From Maylandia zebra (taxonomy: Eukaryota > Chordata > Actinopteri > Cichliformes > Cichlidae): 64,000 bases of DNA. The DNA lies in assembly GCF_041146795.1 (NCBI RefSeq), contig NC_135170.1, positions 30,987,533-31,051,532 of the forward strand, written 5' to 3'. The position numbers and the translations under genes were made by a program. Numbering within the stretch: position 1 is the first letter of the stretch; each line of letters starts with the position of its first letter. Below, piece after piece: positions 40,319 through 45,027 of this stretch. Below the pieces are notes generated by a model that was not told the origin of the DNA, did no database searches, and was given only the letters and a program-made list of their open reading frames with translations.

Positions 40319-43300
40319 TCAGTCTGAATCAGAGTCTGACGACCCCTGTGAGTTCGACTCACTGCTGCTGTCCTCCGACTTGTTCTCCTTGTCGTCTGCT
40401 TCGTCGTCCTCTTCGTCGTCTTCATCGTCGTCGTCCTCCTTCTTTAAACAAAAAGAAATATATACACGCATTTTCAGCAAAAACTCAAAACCACTGGTTG
40501 CAACTATCTCATGTATCTGAGCAGAGAAAACACTCACGTCATCATCATCCTCATCGTCCTCACTGGAAGAGTCGCCTTCACTGGAAGCTTTCTCCTGCTC
40601 ATCGTCGTCGTCATCCTCCTCATCGTCGTCGTCATCATCCTCGTCCTCCTCCGTATCCTGCAACAAGTGATCCCCCCCTTTCAGATAATGCTAATAACAT
40701 GACTATAAAAAATTTAAGTTTCTGCTCAACTCAGCTCCAAGACAGTAAACAAAGAAACAAGTCTGTACTCACAGATTTCTTGGCCTTTGCCTTGGGGCCT
40801 CCTGGTTTTGCTGTAGTTCTTCTTTTCTGAATGATTTGCGAAATAATAGATCATTAAAATATATCAAAAACAGATATTGCAATTTCAGCTGTTTGTAAAT
40901 GCTAGCTGTTACAAATCAAAAACATTCCTCACTTGTGAATTATATTCTTTGTAAGTGTTTCTCTCTTGCGAAGACAAACTCTGTGGAAAGACGGAAATAG
41001 ATTTTTCCAAATGTCTCAAAAACATCTTGCCTCCCCCCCCCCCCCCCATCCATTAAATTCTTCTTACAGCGAGCCACTGTTCCAGTTGGACTTTGTACTG
41101 CCTTTGCTTCTCCTCAGCAATCTTCTTGTAGCGGTCCTTGTCCTTCAGTGGTAACCTCTGCCAGCGGCTGCCAATCTCAGCCATCCGCTCTTTCATTGGG
41201 AGATGATTCAGCTCTCCATTGGACAGCATCTCCTGAGAGAACTTCTGATATCCATTTCTAGAGTCAAAGTAAAAGGAGAAAAAAAAAAAAAAGTCAGGCC
41301 TTCGAATTGGCTAAATCAGGCAGCACAGATGAGCTGAATGTCGCAAACTTACGATGGCGGTTTCTTGGGTTCACCCTCAAATTTCATCTTCTTCCCTGAG
41401 GCAATGGCAGCAGCAGGCGAGCGCATCTCACTTACTTCTCTCTGTTGAGGACAGGTAAATCAACATTTAGCTCTCACTGGTTTCATATAGAGAAACAGGA
41501 GATTTTATTGAGACTGTGTCCTAACCTCATATCTTTTCTGGTCTTCTGCTGCCTTTTTGATCCACATAATCTTCTCTTTTTTCTCCATGGTGCTCCAGGT
41601 TCCTTCCATTGCTTTCTGTGCCTTTGGCCGGTCGTTCTGCAAACCACATACAGGCATTAAATCCATTCCTGGGTATGTTATCTGTGTTTCCAGCACTCTG
41701 TCATCAACAGCATTACACATCTGTAGCTCATTGTTAACATCAGCATGATTATTAAGTAAATTTCTATTCACAAAAACATCCAAATATTTTAACGATTTGC
41801 TATTATACTGAATAATGTGGGCTAAAATACAACAGCTAGTTTGTGGATACCTTAAATCTGGCCAGGTAGTCGCCTATAACACTCTGCTGCCAGATGTCTT
41901 GTGCATTTTTGGGCGGATCTGGGAGTCGACTGCGGTCCTCTTTTTCCTTCTTCTCCGATTCTGCCTTCAACACCGATTCTAAGCGCTTAAACTTCTCCTA
42001 AATCATTAGAGAAATCCAGCACATCACAAAATAATTGAAAAATCCCACTTTCAGAATAACCTTTGAACTTGAAAGCCTACCGATGCGGCATTTCTGTTCC
42101 ATAAACTAACACGTTACCTTCTTCTTATCTGGCAGCTCGTTCCACATGCGAGCAAGAAGTCTTGTGATCTCACTGTCAGCGAGGTCTGGCCGCTCCTGCT
42201 GCAGTTTGGGACGTTTCTCCTCAGCAAATATGAACATGGCTGAAATGGGTCTTTTGGGTTTTTCTGGATTTGCCTGCAAGTTCCACGTGAGAATATCAGA
42301 ATAATACATGAAAGCATCTATGTAAATACAAATCTAACTGTAAAGCACACCTGAATTTAAAATTCTTATTAAAATGTTATTGCATTATGCTGCAGTTTTC
42401 TCTTTCTGTACCTCTGAAAAACAGACCGATTGGCTCTCTGAACAGTTTCGCACAAATATATTTTCCTTGGCTTCATACCTTTCCGTGTTAGGTGAACATG
42501 TAAAAAGCTACACTATATATCAGAAAATAACACGGAACAAAATCTGACTCGAGGACATATTGCATTGCTACACTGACAAGTTGTGTTTTTCTTAAATGAC
42601 TGCATCATTATCAAAAACATAAAAAGTTGCTGTATTCTGGGACATACGTTTGCTTTAGAGTTTTTCTTTTTAGATGCGGGACTATTGGCTCCAGTGCTTT
42701 TCTTAAAACCAGTCTTCGCCTCACCCAAGACCCGCTGCTGCTCCTCCTCTGATATACTCTACAGATGCACAGCAAATAAACCACACATAAGAAACACTTC
42801 CAGTAAAAACAAAACATGTAAACAATGTTTGAGACTTACACTGAGAAATCTGTTCATCTCAATTTCATACTCTTTTTTCCTCTGAAAGAAAAAAAAGACA
42901 AAAAAAAAGTGACAATTTAGATAAACTTGCTTTATTTATTGACTTTTTCCTCTCGGTTATTCATGATTCTCAAGTCACCTGTTCGCAGCGTTTTTGGTAG
43001 GCGTCCTTTTCACCCTGCTTTAGCAGCTTCCACCGCTGACTACACATCACCATACGCTCTGTGCTGGGAACGTCCTTCATGCTCGACATTAGCTCCGCAC
43101 AGAACATCGAGTAACCGTTTCTGAAAGCATTCAAACACCACATGTTAAAACCAAATATCTCGCAAGGGCAGTGACTCCCTCCCTCAGATGTGTCAGGAGA
43201 GTATTTGTAGCCGTGACTCACGGAGGTGGTTTGTCAGGACGTCCGTCAGATTTGTCCTTCAGGTGCCTCTCTGCCTTGGTCAGGGTGGACTTTACGATGT

Positions 43301-45027
43301 CTTCCTGAGTCATATTTAACTCCGGATGCTGTTGGATGTATTCACGCATCGTCTCCTGGAAGATCGCAAAAAATCCTCAGTTAAAAATTATTTTCTTTTG
43401 TCATCTTTTGTCATCTAAGGCAACCACACACTGATTCTTGTCTCACCTCATACTGCTTCTGCTGTTCCAGCGACTTGGTGATCCATTTGAGCCTCTTTTT
43501 GTCAGAAAGCTGCGTCCACTGTTTGCCAAGACTATCTTTAATGTCTTTGGTGGTCGCCTGGGTGAGACACAGAAAAAGTTAAAATCTCTGAAAGCGGCTA
43601 AAAGTTGCATTCTGTTTTGTTGCGCAGCTAAACTCACATCAGGGTGCAGCTTGAGGAAGGCCTTCTTTTCGTGGTTGTACCACAACTGTTGGGGCGTCTT
43701 GGGCTTTTCTGGTACATTTGAGCCTTTTTTGGCCATGCTCTCCACCAGGTCTGGATGCTCTTCCCTGTTTAGGCATCATAAAAAACGTATTAAACAGGTA
43801 TTATGCATTTTAGGCTTATGTGTTATGACTAGTTTAAAAAAATAAAGTAGTAAATCATCTCACCTGAACTTCATCATACTTTGAACAAATGTTTCCTTAT
43901 CTCGTAAGAAGTCGTCAACATATTTTTTCTGTAGTTATGAAAAGAAACGTTATTTTTCCAAGGATATTTTTTAGGAAAAAAAACAAAAAACATGATGGTC
44001 AAAACAGTGGTGTTCGTCTTTGACTGACCTTCTTTTTATCAGGCAGCTCCCGATACTTCTTAGATAGGATTTTAGTGAGGTCCAGGTTGCTCATCTCAGG
44101 GTGCAGCTTTGCATACTTGGCCCTCTTCTCCATAAAGAAACGGAAGTATGGAGTCAAAGGCTTCTTGGGGAAATCTGGGTGTTTCTGCATTTGTGGGAGG
44201 GAAAGGGGACGGAATTACTTAAGCCTTGAACTCCACTAACACAACTGGCAGGCCATAAAATCATGTGAATGTTGACTTGAATTCACCTTTATTTTCTTGC
44301 CCTTGTATGGGTTCTTTATGTAGTCTTGAGCATCAACTATCAATTCTGTCAGGGTCCTGAATTTACGAATCTGTGTTTGGCAGGAAAACAAAACGGAGAA
44401 ACTCAGAAGACTTGACTTAACAGAACAATCTGACTTGGAGAAAAATCGATACAAATCAACTCACCTCTTTCGACACCACCTGCCATTTCTGCTTGCACAT
44501 CTCAGCTGTGTAGGAATTGAAAGCAACTTTCTGCCAGTCCAGGTGGGACTCTGATGTTTTGTATTTAGTCAGGTCTTTCTGTGGAAGAGCCACTTTCATG
44601 GCCTCCAGCAGTCTTAAAAGGTCATCCTGCGCCCATACTGTGAAAATGTTAAAAGAGAGAGAGAGAAGAAAGACATAAAAATCACAAAGGAAAAAAACAG
44701 ATCTGCCCAAAATGTCTTTCAAATTATACATCCTTTTGTGTATTCTGACAAGAAAATGTTTTAATTACTATTCTATTCTTACTGTTGGCTTACTATTGGT
44801 AAACCATATATTCTAATCTAATCGGAATCAAACATTCAGTTTTAATTGCTGTAATTCTTAGAAGAACTAGTACATTAATCACGTTTAATACTAAGGTCTT
44901 AATATACAAGGTTATGTAAAGTGCTGCCTTGCCATGATTAATCTACATATCAACTCTGTTCAGAAAAACTTGATTTAGCAAAAAACCCACCTTGGTCTTG
45001 TGTCGTTGCCTCCATTTCTCCATTCAT
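40319..45027 (-). CDS. ubtf: Upstream binding transcription factor UBF (RNA polymerase I)
   Basis: UBF is an HMG-box architectural protein of the nucleolus that opens rDNA chromatin and supports pre-initiation complex formation with SL1. Twenty coding exons: 45027-44991, 44637-44465, 44370-44287, 44184-44029, 43928-43864, 43764-43638, 43557-43447, 43355-43222, 43120-42979, 42881-42840, 42758-42648, 42273-42118, 41997-41851, 41636-41526, 41441-41353, 41257-41068, 40980-40933, 40826-40773, 40657-40538, 40441-40319. Phases agree, giving 739 residues (human UBF1 764). The dimerisation region is residues 1-100 ([20 protein letters not shown]). Six HMG boxes begin near residues 104, 187, 292, 398, 473 and 558, with cores [75 protein letters not shown] and [15 protein letters not shown]. 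The tail is Asp/Glu/Ser-rich (about 660-739), ending SDSDSD. The translation start in exon 2 matches the MNGE start of mammals. Confidence 0.97.
41031..41047. repeat. Poly-C run (G-run in ubtf pre-mRNA)
   Basis: About 15 consecutive C on the + strand, about 20 bases past the donor of the ubtf exon ending at 41068. In the transcript it is a G-run, a motif known to influence donor use. Confidence 0.85.
43447..43557 (-). other. ubtf: ubtf 37-codon cassette exon (UBF1/UBF2 switch)
   Basis: A phase 0/0 exon of 111 nt encoding [14 protein letters not shown]...KQYE, the second half of HMG box 2. In mammals, skipping of the equivalent 37-codon exon yields UBF2, which is weaker in rDNA activation. 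The exon length and phases here would allow the same switch. Whether it is skipped in fish cannot be seen from genomic DNA. Confidence 0.7.

Follow-up and report, generated by a model that had tools for sequence, protein, structure and literature searches.

The window analysed here, a stretch of 64,000 nucleotides (nt) from the cichlid fish Maylandia zebra (NCBI RefSeq assembly GCF_041146795.1, contig NC_135170.1, positions 30,987,533 to 31,051,532), carries on its minus strand a gene that by its sequence is a fish orthologue of UBTF (UBF). UBTF is an architectural protein of RNA polymerase I chromatin with six HMG boxes, and it makes ribosomal RNA genes accessible to transcription. The coding sequence was rebuilt from 45027 to 40319 as 20 coding exons with an open frame of 739 amino acids, and the splice sites are GT at 19/19 donors and AG at 19/19 acceptors. 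The protein matches the Pfam families HMG_box (172.7 bits over six stretches) and HMG_box_5 (174.7 bits), so that the combination by which UBTF/UBF is recognized, six tandem HMG boxes with a divergent box 5, is present; its top matches in the PDB are UBF boxes 1, 3, 4, 5 and 6, each in the expected place. This is an ordinary UBTF gene carrying a real record of internal duplication: a single tandem duplication of three boxes, in frame, probably made the second half of UBTF out of the first.

The record lies in the introns, whose positions are given below as offsets from the conserved tryptophan (Trp) of helix II, replaced by tyrosine in box 1. The offsets were verified by script, except that Trp+31 of box 3 was counted from the gene model, which also supplies all exon boundaries; E5, E8, E10, E13, E15 and E17 were placed by the offsets as well. 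The left end of block 1 is E5 (44029-44184), which carries box 1, and its partner in block 2 is E13 (42118-42273), which carries box 4. Both exons are of 156 nt and phase 0/0, start nine residues before the end of the PKKP/PKRP motif and end at Trp+8. The cores of boxes 2 and 5 lie in E8 (43447-43557) and E15 (41526-41636), each of 111 nt and phase 0/0, with phase 0 introns at Trp-13 and Trp+23. Boxes 3 and 6 have a phase 2 intron at P|NGY (the bar marks the intron) and a phase 0 intron at Trp+31: box 3 runs from NGY to Trp+17 in E10 (42979-43120; 142 nt, phase 2/0) and on to Trp+31 in E11 (42840-42881; 42 nt, 0/0), and box 6 covers the same span in one exon, E17 (41068-41257; 190 nt, 2/0). 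Of the connecting exons, E6 (43864-43928; end of box 1 and linker; 65 nt, 0/2) and E7 (43638-43764; linker and start of box 2; 127 nt, 2/0) together correspond to E14 (41851-41997; end of box 4, linker and start of box 5; 147 nt, 0/0), and E9 (43222-43355; linker 2-3; 134 nt, 0/2) corresponds to E16 (41353-41441; linker 5-6; 89 nt, 0/2). Block 1 ends in or after E12 (42648-42758; 111 nt, 0/0), which holds the stretch after box 3 and the inter-block linker; the start of E12 has its partner in E18 (40933-40980; 48 nt, 0/0), the stretch after box 6.

All six introns of block 2 (boxes 4-6) are matched in position and phase by block 1, which has eight. The two without a partner are the intron that follows E6 in the box 1-2 linker and the phase 0 intron at Trp+17 of box 3 (42979/42881). 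A three-box block duplication had been proposed in an earlier sequence-only reading of this DNA. The 156-nt exons of boxes 1 and 4, the 111-nt exons of boxes 2 and 5, the phase 2 introns before NGY (43222/43120 and 41353/41257) and the linker lengths of 65 + 127 against 147 nt on which it drew agree exactly with the rebuilt gene. It listed five of the six matches and overlooked the last, a phase 0 intron 31 residues past Trp (FLS|S, 42840/42758; WLA|S, 41068/40980); among the differences it noticed the linker intron but not the one at Trp+17.

Among the 15 possible pairs of boxes, 1/4, 2/5 and 3/6 have two introns in common each and the other 12 have none. With introns placed uniformly over the roughly 660 aligned nt, the chance that all six block 2 introns would match the eight of block 1 is about 2.5e-13, and about 2.0e-11 when the intron at the block edge is left out (five of five against seven). 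The exclusive pairing observed also failed to appear when introns were drawn from 15 HMG-box sites or from UBTF's own eight sites (0/200,000 draws each). The order of the pairs carries far less information: shuffling the observed intron sets among the boxes gave the order 1-2-3/4-5-6 in 48/720 permutations (6.7%), so pair order alone is weak evidence.

How far such sites can be trusted was gauged from other HMG boxes of the same genome, those of HMGB (box B), TOX, HMG20, SSRP1 and CIC-like proteins among them, which have the same fold as the UBTF boxes. In this survey 21 exon ends were scored, with family names read from the sequence by the analyst without database assignment; outside the scored set stand SOX-, LEF/TCF-like and other loci (L001-L008, L017, L023-L027, L030-L039, L049), most of which were inspected. 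Three HMGB box B exons (3/3 scored) and one from locus L041 start in phase 2 at P|SA, exactly the site of UBTF boxes 3 and 6, and end at Trp+24, one codon from the site in boxes 2 and 5. Ten TOX-, HMG20-, SSRP1- and WDHD1-like boxes (10/10) have a phase 0 exon end at Trp+9, one codon from that of boxes 1 and 4, and all three CIC/BBX-like boxes end an exon at Trp+17, as box 3 does. The remaining four ends, SMARCE1- and PBRM1-like, are at Trp+19 and Trp+12. No exon end at Trp+8, Trp+23 or Trp+31 was present among the 21, and the translations read openly through Trp-13 in all 21 exons; in the eight boxes read by probe match beyond the first end, the second exon is unbroken to Trp+36 in seven (five TOX, two HMG20) and to Trp+29 in one (SSRP1). 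The survey rules out introns private to UBTF, as the sequence-only reading had treated them: HMGB box B has the same phase 2 site, and one codon separates the 1/4 and 2/5 ends from introns of TOX/HMG20/SSRP1-like and HMGB boxes. Intron sites are common across HMG-box families, which is a warning against inferring domain duplication from one shared intron. A single shared intron is weak evidence, and it is the complete set that counts.

The sequences of the boxes were compared in four trees, one of all 31 rows, one without five long or partial rows, and two of UBTF boxes only, under a mixture and a plain model. The mammalian boxes in these comparisons are 1, 3, 4, 5 and 6, for which structures have been solved; no mammalian box 2 was among them. 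Boxes 2 and 5 form one side of a branch in all four trees (97/98, 99/98, 81/99 and 95/99), as do boxes 3 and 6 (98/98, 100/99, 99/97 and 99/99). Among seven segments the sole further match of Pfam HMG_box_5 is box 2 (30.0 bits against a cut-off of 25), a profile of box 5 finds box 2 best (32.0 bits against 12.9 for the next kind), and boxes 3 and 6 are mutual best matches. The top three matches of the box 4 profile are three of the four box 1 sequences, at 40.3-42.1 bits, with HMGB next at 37.7. Linkers 2-3 and 5-6, compared as stretches that include the start of the next box, are related as well, with z 8.6 in the window gene and 10.8 in a second UBTF gene, on C18.

A number of results weigh against a single block. 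Boxes 1 and 4 were joined in none of the four trees, and the pairing trails the best tree by 0.16 to 6.1 log-likelihood units, though it is not rejected by the approximately unbiased (AU) test (p 0.39 with 31 rows, 0.31 with the five long or partial rows out, and 0.41 and 0.26 for UBTF-only boxes under the mixture and plain models). In the UBTF-only trees the deficit is 0.16 (mixture) and 1.27 (plain) units and the pair occurs in 75/300 and 56/300 bootstrap trees; all three pairs occur jointly in 32/300 and 48/300. In favour of the block, rival pairings are at or near rejection, with p 0.056, 0.036 and 0.031 for 1+2 and 0.034 and 0.030 for 2+4. With the long rows of a third UBTF gene (on C8), CIC and PBRM removed, boxes 1 and 4 still stood apart. 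The largest tree places box 4 beside SOX/CIC, the UBTF boxes collectively are not a clade (AU p 0.22, a clade not being rejected), and one UBTF-only tree nests box 6 inside box 3 with low support. The best match of the box 1 profile is HMG20a (42.9 bits, 0.6 above box 4 at 42.3), and that of the box 2 profile is box 1 (37.3-40.5 bits), above box 5 (29.9-30.7); raw pairwise scores behave likewise (112 for 1/2, 95 for 2/5). Linkers 1-2 and 4-5 have no significant similarity (z 1.5 and 1.9). The stretches after boxes 3 and 6 are weakly similar (z 3.0, the value for E12 and E18, then 2.3 and 1.5), and unpaired linkers reach 2.5. To these must be added the permutation count given above and the fact that sites of other HMG families coincide with several of the matched introns or are one codon away.

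The sister pairs expected on the sequence-only reading are thus found for 2/5 and 3/6 and never for 1/4. As the trees never join box 1 with box 4, that part of the case rests on the introns and on pairwise similarity, and the likeness of boxes 1 and 4, as the most canonical boxes, may in part be ancestral. The duplication of a 1-2-3 block as first proposed therefore stands on the complete intron match, the 2+5 and 3+6 clades (99/98 and 100/99) and the related linkers 2-3 and 5-6, but not on the sisterhood of 1 and 4 nor on linkers 1-2 and 4-5.

The genome contains at least three UBTF genes, according to an HMG-box search in which 150 of 173 candidates were scored; a genome-wide search with the Pfam box 5 family gave five matches, three in the window gene and two on C18. 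The C18 gene (C18:415857-407647, minus strand), modelled from E3 to E18, has GT at 15/15 donors and the phases of the window gene, and its exons of 156, 65, 111, 142, 42, 111, 190 and 48 nt equal E5, E6, E8, E10, E11, E15, E17 and E18 in length. It has five boxes: the box 4 exon, E13, is missing, and the intron between E12 and E14 is, at 135 nt, too short to conceal it. E14 of this gene begins ERCREAES, against EKFKRLES in the window gene, as if a helix of box 4 had once stood there. The score of this stretch against the window sequence was reached by 22, 81 and 439 of 20,000 shuffles (8, 10 and 12 residues); the mammalian sequence gives no significant score (3,214 of 20,000 shuffles for 8 residues), and a box 4 relic here is only suggestive. 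The C8 gene (C8:16013627-16020368, plus strand), modelled from E4 to E21 with open exons and with E3 detected by translation, retains the N-terminal domain, boxes 1, 3 and 6 only, and the acidic tail. One 108-nt exon of phase 2/2 stands in place of E7-E9, E13-E15 are missing, and its boxes are 26-43% identical per box to those of the other two genes and of the mammal. Both paralogues keep the phases of those surviving introns that were modelled, and together they form a natural set of deletion mutants for boxes 2, 4 and 5. A separate feature of the C18 gene, at about 9050-8850 of locus L029 (minus strand), is a tandem 44-bp unit in which the acceptor of exon 10 (box 3) and the first part of that exon are repeated, giving four acceptor-like CAG|TAA sites 44 bp apart.

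Mammalian UBTF/UBF, known from human and mouse, has an N-terminal domain, six HMG boxes and an acidic tail like the window gene, and the two are 68-80% identical in the five boxes whose mammalian structure is solved. Each of these boxes (1, 3, 4, 5 and 6) groups with its mammalian counterpart in the tree that gives 99/98 for 2+5 and 100/99 for 3+6, with support from 90/79 to 100/100, which places the duplication before the fish-mammal split. Exon data point the same way. Mouse coding exon 7 is differentially spliced, and UBTF2 is without 37 residues of box 2, according to PMC8863233; E8 is the seventh coding exon of the window gene and has 37 codons. For human exon 13, PMC10244165 prints the box 4 motif as ELLTRLA, and E13 contains EITRLLA, the counterpart of this leucine-rich motif. 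At least these boundaries, then, are not fish novelties, and on the published mammalian exon data and most of the trees the block duplication most likely predates the fish-mammal split. Should the C18 gene be a sister copy that dates from the vertebrate genome duplications, for which the evidence is mixed, the block duplication may be older than those as well. Against such an origin, box 3 of the C18 gene groups with mammalian box 3, apart from that of the window gene (96/79 and 95/85), and the C18 gene is closer to the mammal than the window gene in box 1 (86 vs 80% identity) and box 3 (77 vs 73%); box 6 is equal and box 5 lower (73 vs 80%).

The same matching introns could in principle have come about in other ways. 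Independent gain in fish at proto-splice sites, which the sequence-only reading had named as fatal to its proposal, is the least credible of these: nothing in its favour was found in this analysis, the same boundaries occur in the two other UBTF paralogues, and for E8 and E13 it is answered by mammalian exons, mouse coding exon 7 agreeing with E8 in count and length (PMC8863233) and human exon 13 holding the box 4 leucine-rich motif as E13 does (PMC10244165). A very improbable history, somewhat better placed than the last, is that the boxes multiplied singly and that old HMG-box introns were paired by chance. The exact P|SA phase 2 site in HMGB box B (3/3) and one other gene, Trp+17 in CIC/BBX-like boxes (3/3), and Trp+9 (10/10) and Trp+24 (3/3) one codon from UBTF sites all lend it something, as does the 48/720 frequency of the pair order. 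Neither pool of sites, however, gave three exclusive two-match pairs in any draw, linkers 2-3 and 5-6 are related, and none of the comparators, over the part of each that was read, showed the box 1/4 start, Trp-13, Trp+23 or Trp+31.

The serious rival is a history of two events, which we regard as unlikely: boxes 2-3 and their linker would have been duplicated as a pair to give boxes 5-6, and box 4 would have been added separately, for example by a copy of the symmetric E5 becoming E13, much as exon 13 is duplicated in leukaemia (PMC10244165). This fits the contrast between the solid 2/5, 3/6 and linker 2-3/5-6 relationships and the 1/4 pairing, which is not. Box 4 is missing from both paralogues, C18 and C8, and is also, reportedly, the one missing from Xenopus UBF. 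That Xenopus UBF has five boxes, as the title of reference 24 in PMC8863233 says, counts for two events. Against them, box 4 extends from E13 into the first part of E14, and a copy of E5 alone gives no third helix; ERCREAES at the start of the C18 E14, where the window gene has EKFKRLES, hints at a former box 4 helix, without significance against the mammalian sequence.

Duplication of the whole three-box unit, which we prefer, would have taken in the stretch from E5 to roughly the beginning of E12 and produced E13 to E18, and boxes 1 and 4 would have belonged to the same event. The unit E5 to E12 is flanked by phase 0 introns at both ends, so that breakpoints or recombination in the flanking introns, where we would place them, would add it in frame. 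Block 2 would afterwards have lost two introns (in the linker and at Trp+17 of its third box), or block 1 would have gained two. The anatomy of the C18 and C8 genes suggests that phase 0 modularity later let whole exons drop from them, the same property in reverse. A block duplication of this kind offers a testable account of how a central factor of RNA polymerase I came by its six boxes. It explains the resemblance of box 2 to box 5 and of box 3 to box 6, and also why the reading frame survives when exon 8 or 13 is skipped, duplicated or lost. The literature searched, which takes in few subscription papers, gave no report that UBF underwent a three-box block duplication, and the UBF literature of the 1990s may describe one.

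A wider scheme is possible, if doubtful. Symmetric exons would act as removable cassettes and would have produced, in one fish, paralogues of six boxes, of five (no box 4) and of three (1, 3 and 6), after a block duplication older than the vertebrate genome duplications. The three-box gene might be a genomically fixed UBTF2-like form, since box 2 is gone from it, and with it the part that corresponds to the 37 residues absent from mammalian UBTF2. Were this true, the three-box protein would be predicted to bind ribosomal DNA chromatin but not to help in building the promoter complex with SL1.

Outside the two blocks, the gene opens with E2 (44991-45027), the first coding exon, which has its ATG at 45027 and ends in phase 1. 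E3 (44465-44637) encodes the N-terminal domain, predicted to serve in dimerization, and E4 (44287-44370) its end; E19-E21 (40319-40826) encode the acidic C-terminal tail and the stop. No Pfam family scores above its cut-off in the N-terminal part. E3 has a weak match to Myb_DNA-bind_4 (E 0.031, 15.1 bits against a cut-off of 27). The exon alone gave a best AlphaFold model of pLDDT 75, the other four of the five lying at 50-60, and a fold search returned Myb/GARP proteins as 5/14 matches, none significant, the best PDB fold being Myb at E 0.9. The N-terminal domain may, on these models, be Myb/SANT-like. Boxes 1-3 of a UBTF dimer fold about 140 bp of DNA into a single loop, according to PMC10435976. 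Mitochondrial TFAM aligns in a single run over UBTF box 1 and the next box or boxes (boxes 1-3 of the window gene, boxes 1 and 3 of the C8 gene), and a deeper kinship of TFAM and UBTF is possible from these alignments.

The neighbouring open reading frames (ORFs) in the window encode, in order, HCO3_cotransp (an anion exchanger), Sgf11 (ATXN7L3-type), a ubiquitin-like domain (TMUB-type) and ankyrin domains, an order that fits what we take to be the human one at 17q21.31, SLC4A1-UBTF-ATXN7L3-TMUB2-ASB16. The C18 gene is flanked by a FAST_1 (FAST-kinase-domain) ORF and, at its opposite end, by a TMUB-type ubiquitin-like ORF; of the four pieces compared with Pfam, two had no match. This arrangement resembles the presumed human order SLC4A2-FASTK-TMUB1 at 7q36.1, and the case for a sister copy from the early vertebrate genome duplications is built on it. 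Upstream of the C8 gene, and oriented like it, is an anion-exchanger gene, an arrangement that the window gene shares. The C8 gene is a candidate teleost-duplication sister of the window gene. One 59-residue exon, which does not fix SLC4A identity, scores 64.3 bits with AE2 and 59.1 with band 3 beside the window gene, and 63.8 and 62.8 bits with band 3 against 61.2 with AE2 beside the C8 gene. Elsewhere in the genome there are 14 dispersed matches to HMG_box positions 38-69, on C1, C2, C6 and C9, 13 of them with the one score of 30.2 bits; by their sequence they look like a repeat family carrying an HMG-box fragment.

Internal block duplication is familiar from repeat proteins such as titin or spectrin, where a multi-domain unit is copied in tandem with its introns. 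The UBTF unit differs in consisting of three non-equivalent boxes and in belonging to an RNA polymerase I factor. A closer parallel is provided by UBTF itself: in acute myeloid leukaemia, as described in PMC10244165, in-frame tandem duplications arise in exon 13 (box 4), and in one case a genomic duplication of 598 bp over exons 12 to 14 yields an exon13-exon13 transcript. That case represents the mechanism proposed here on the scale of one exon, with the difference that the leukaemia duplications are somatic and centred on exon 13, whereas the ancient event would have copied about eight exons.

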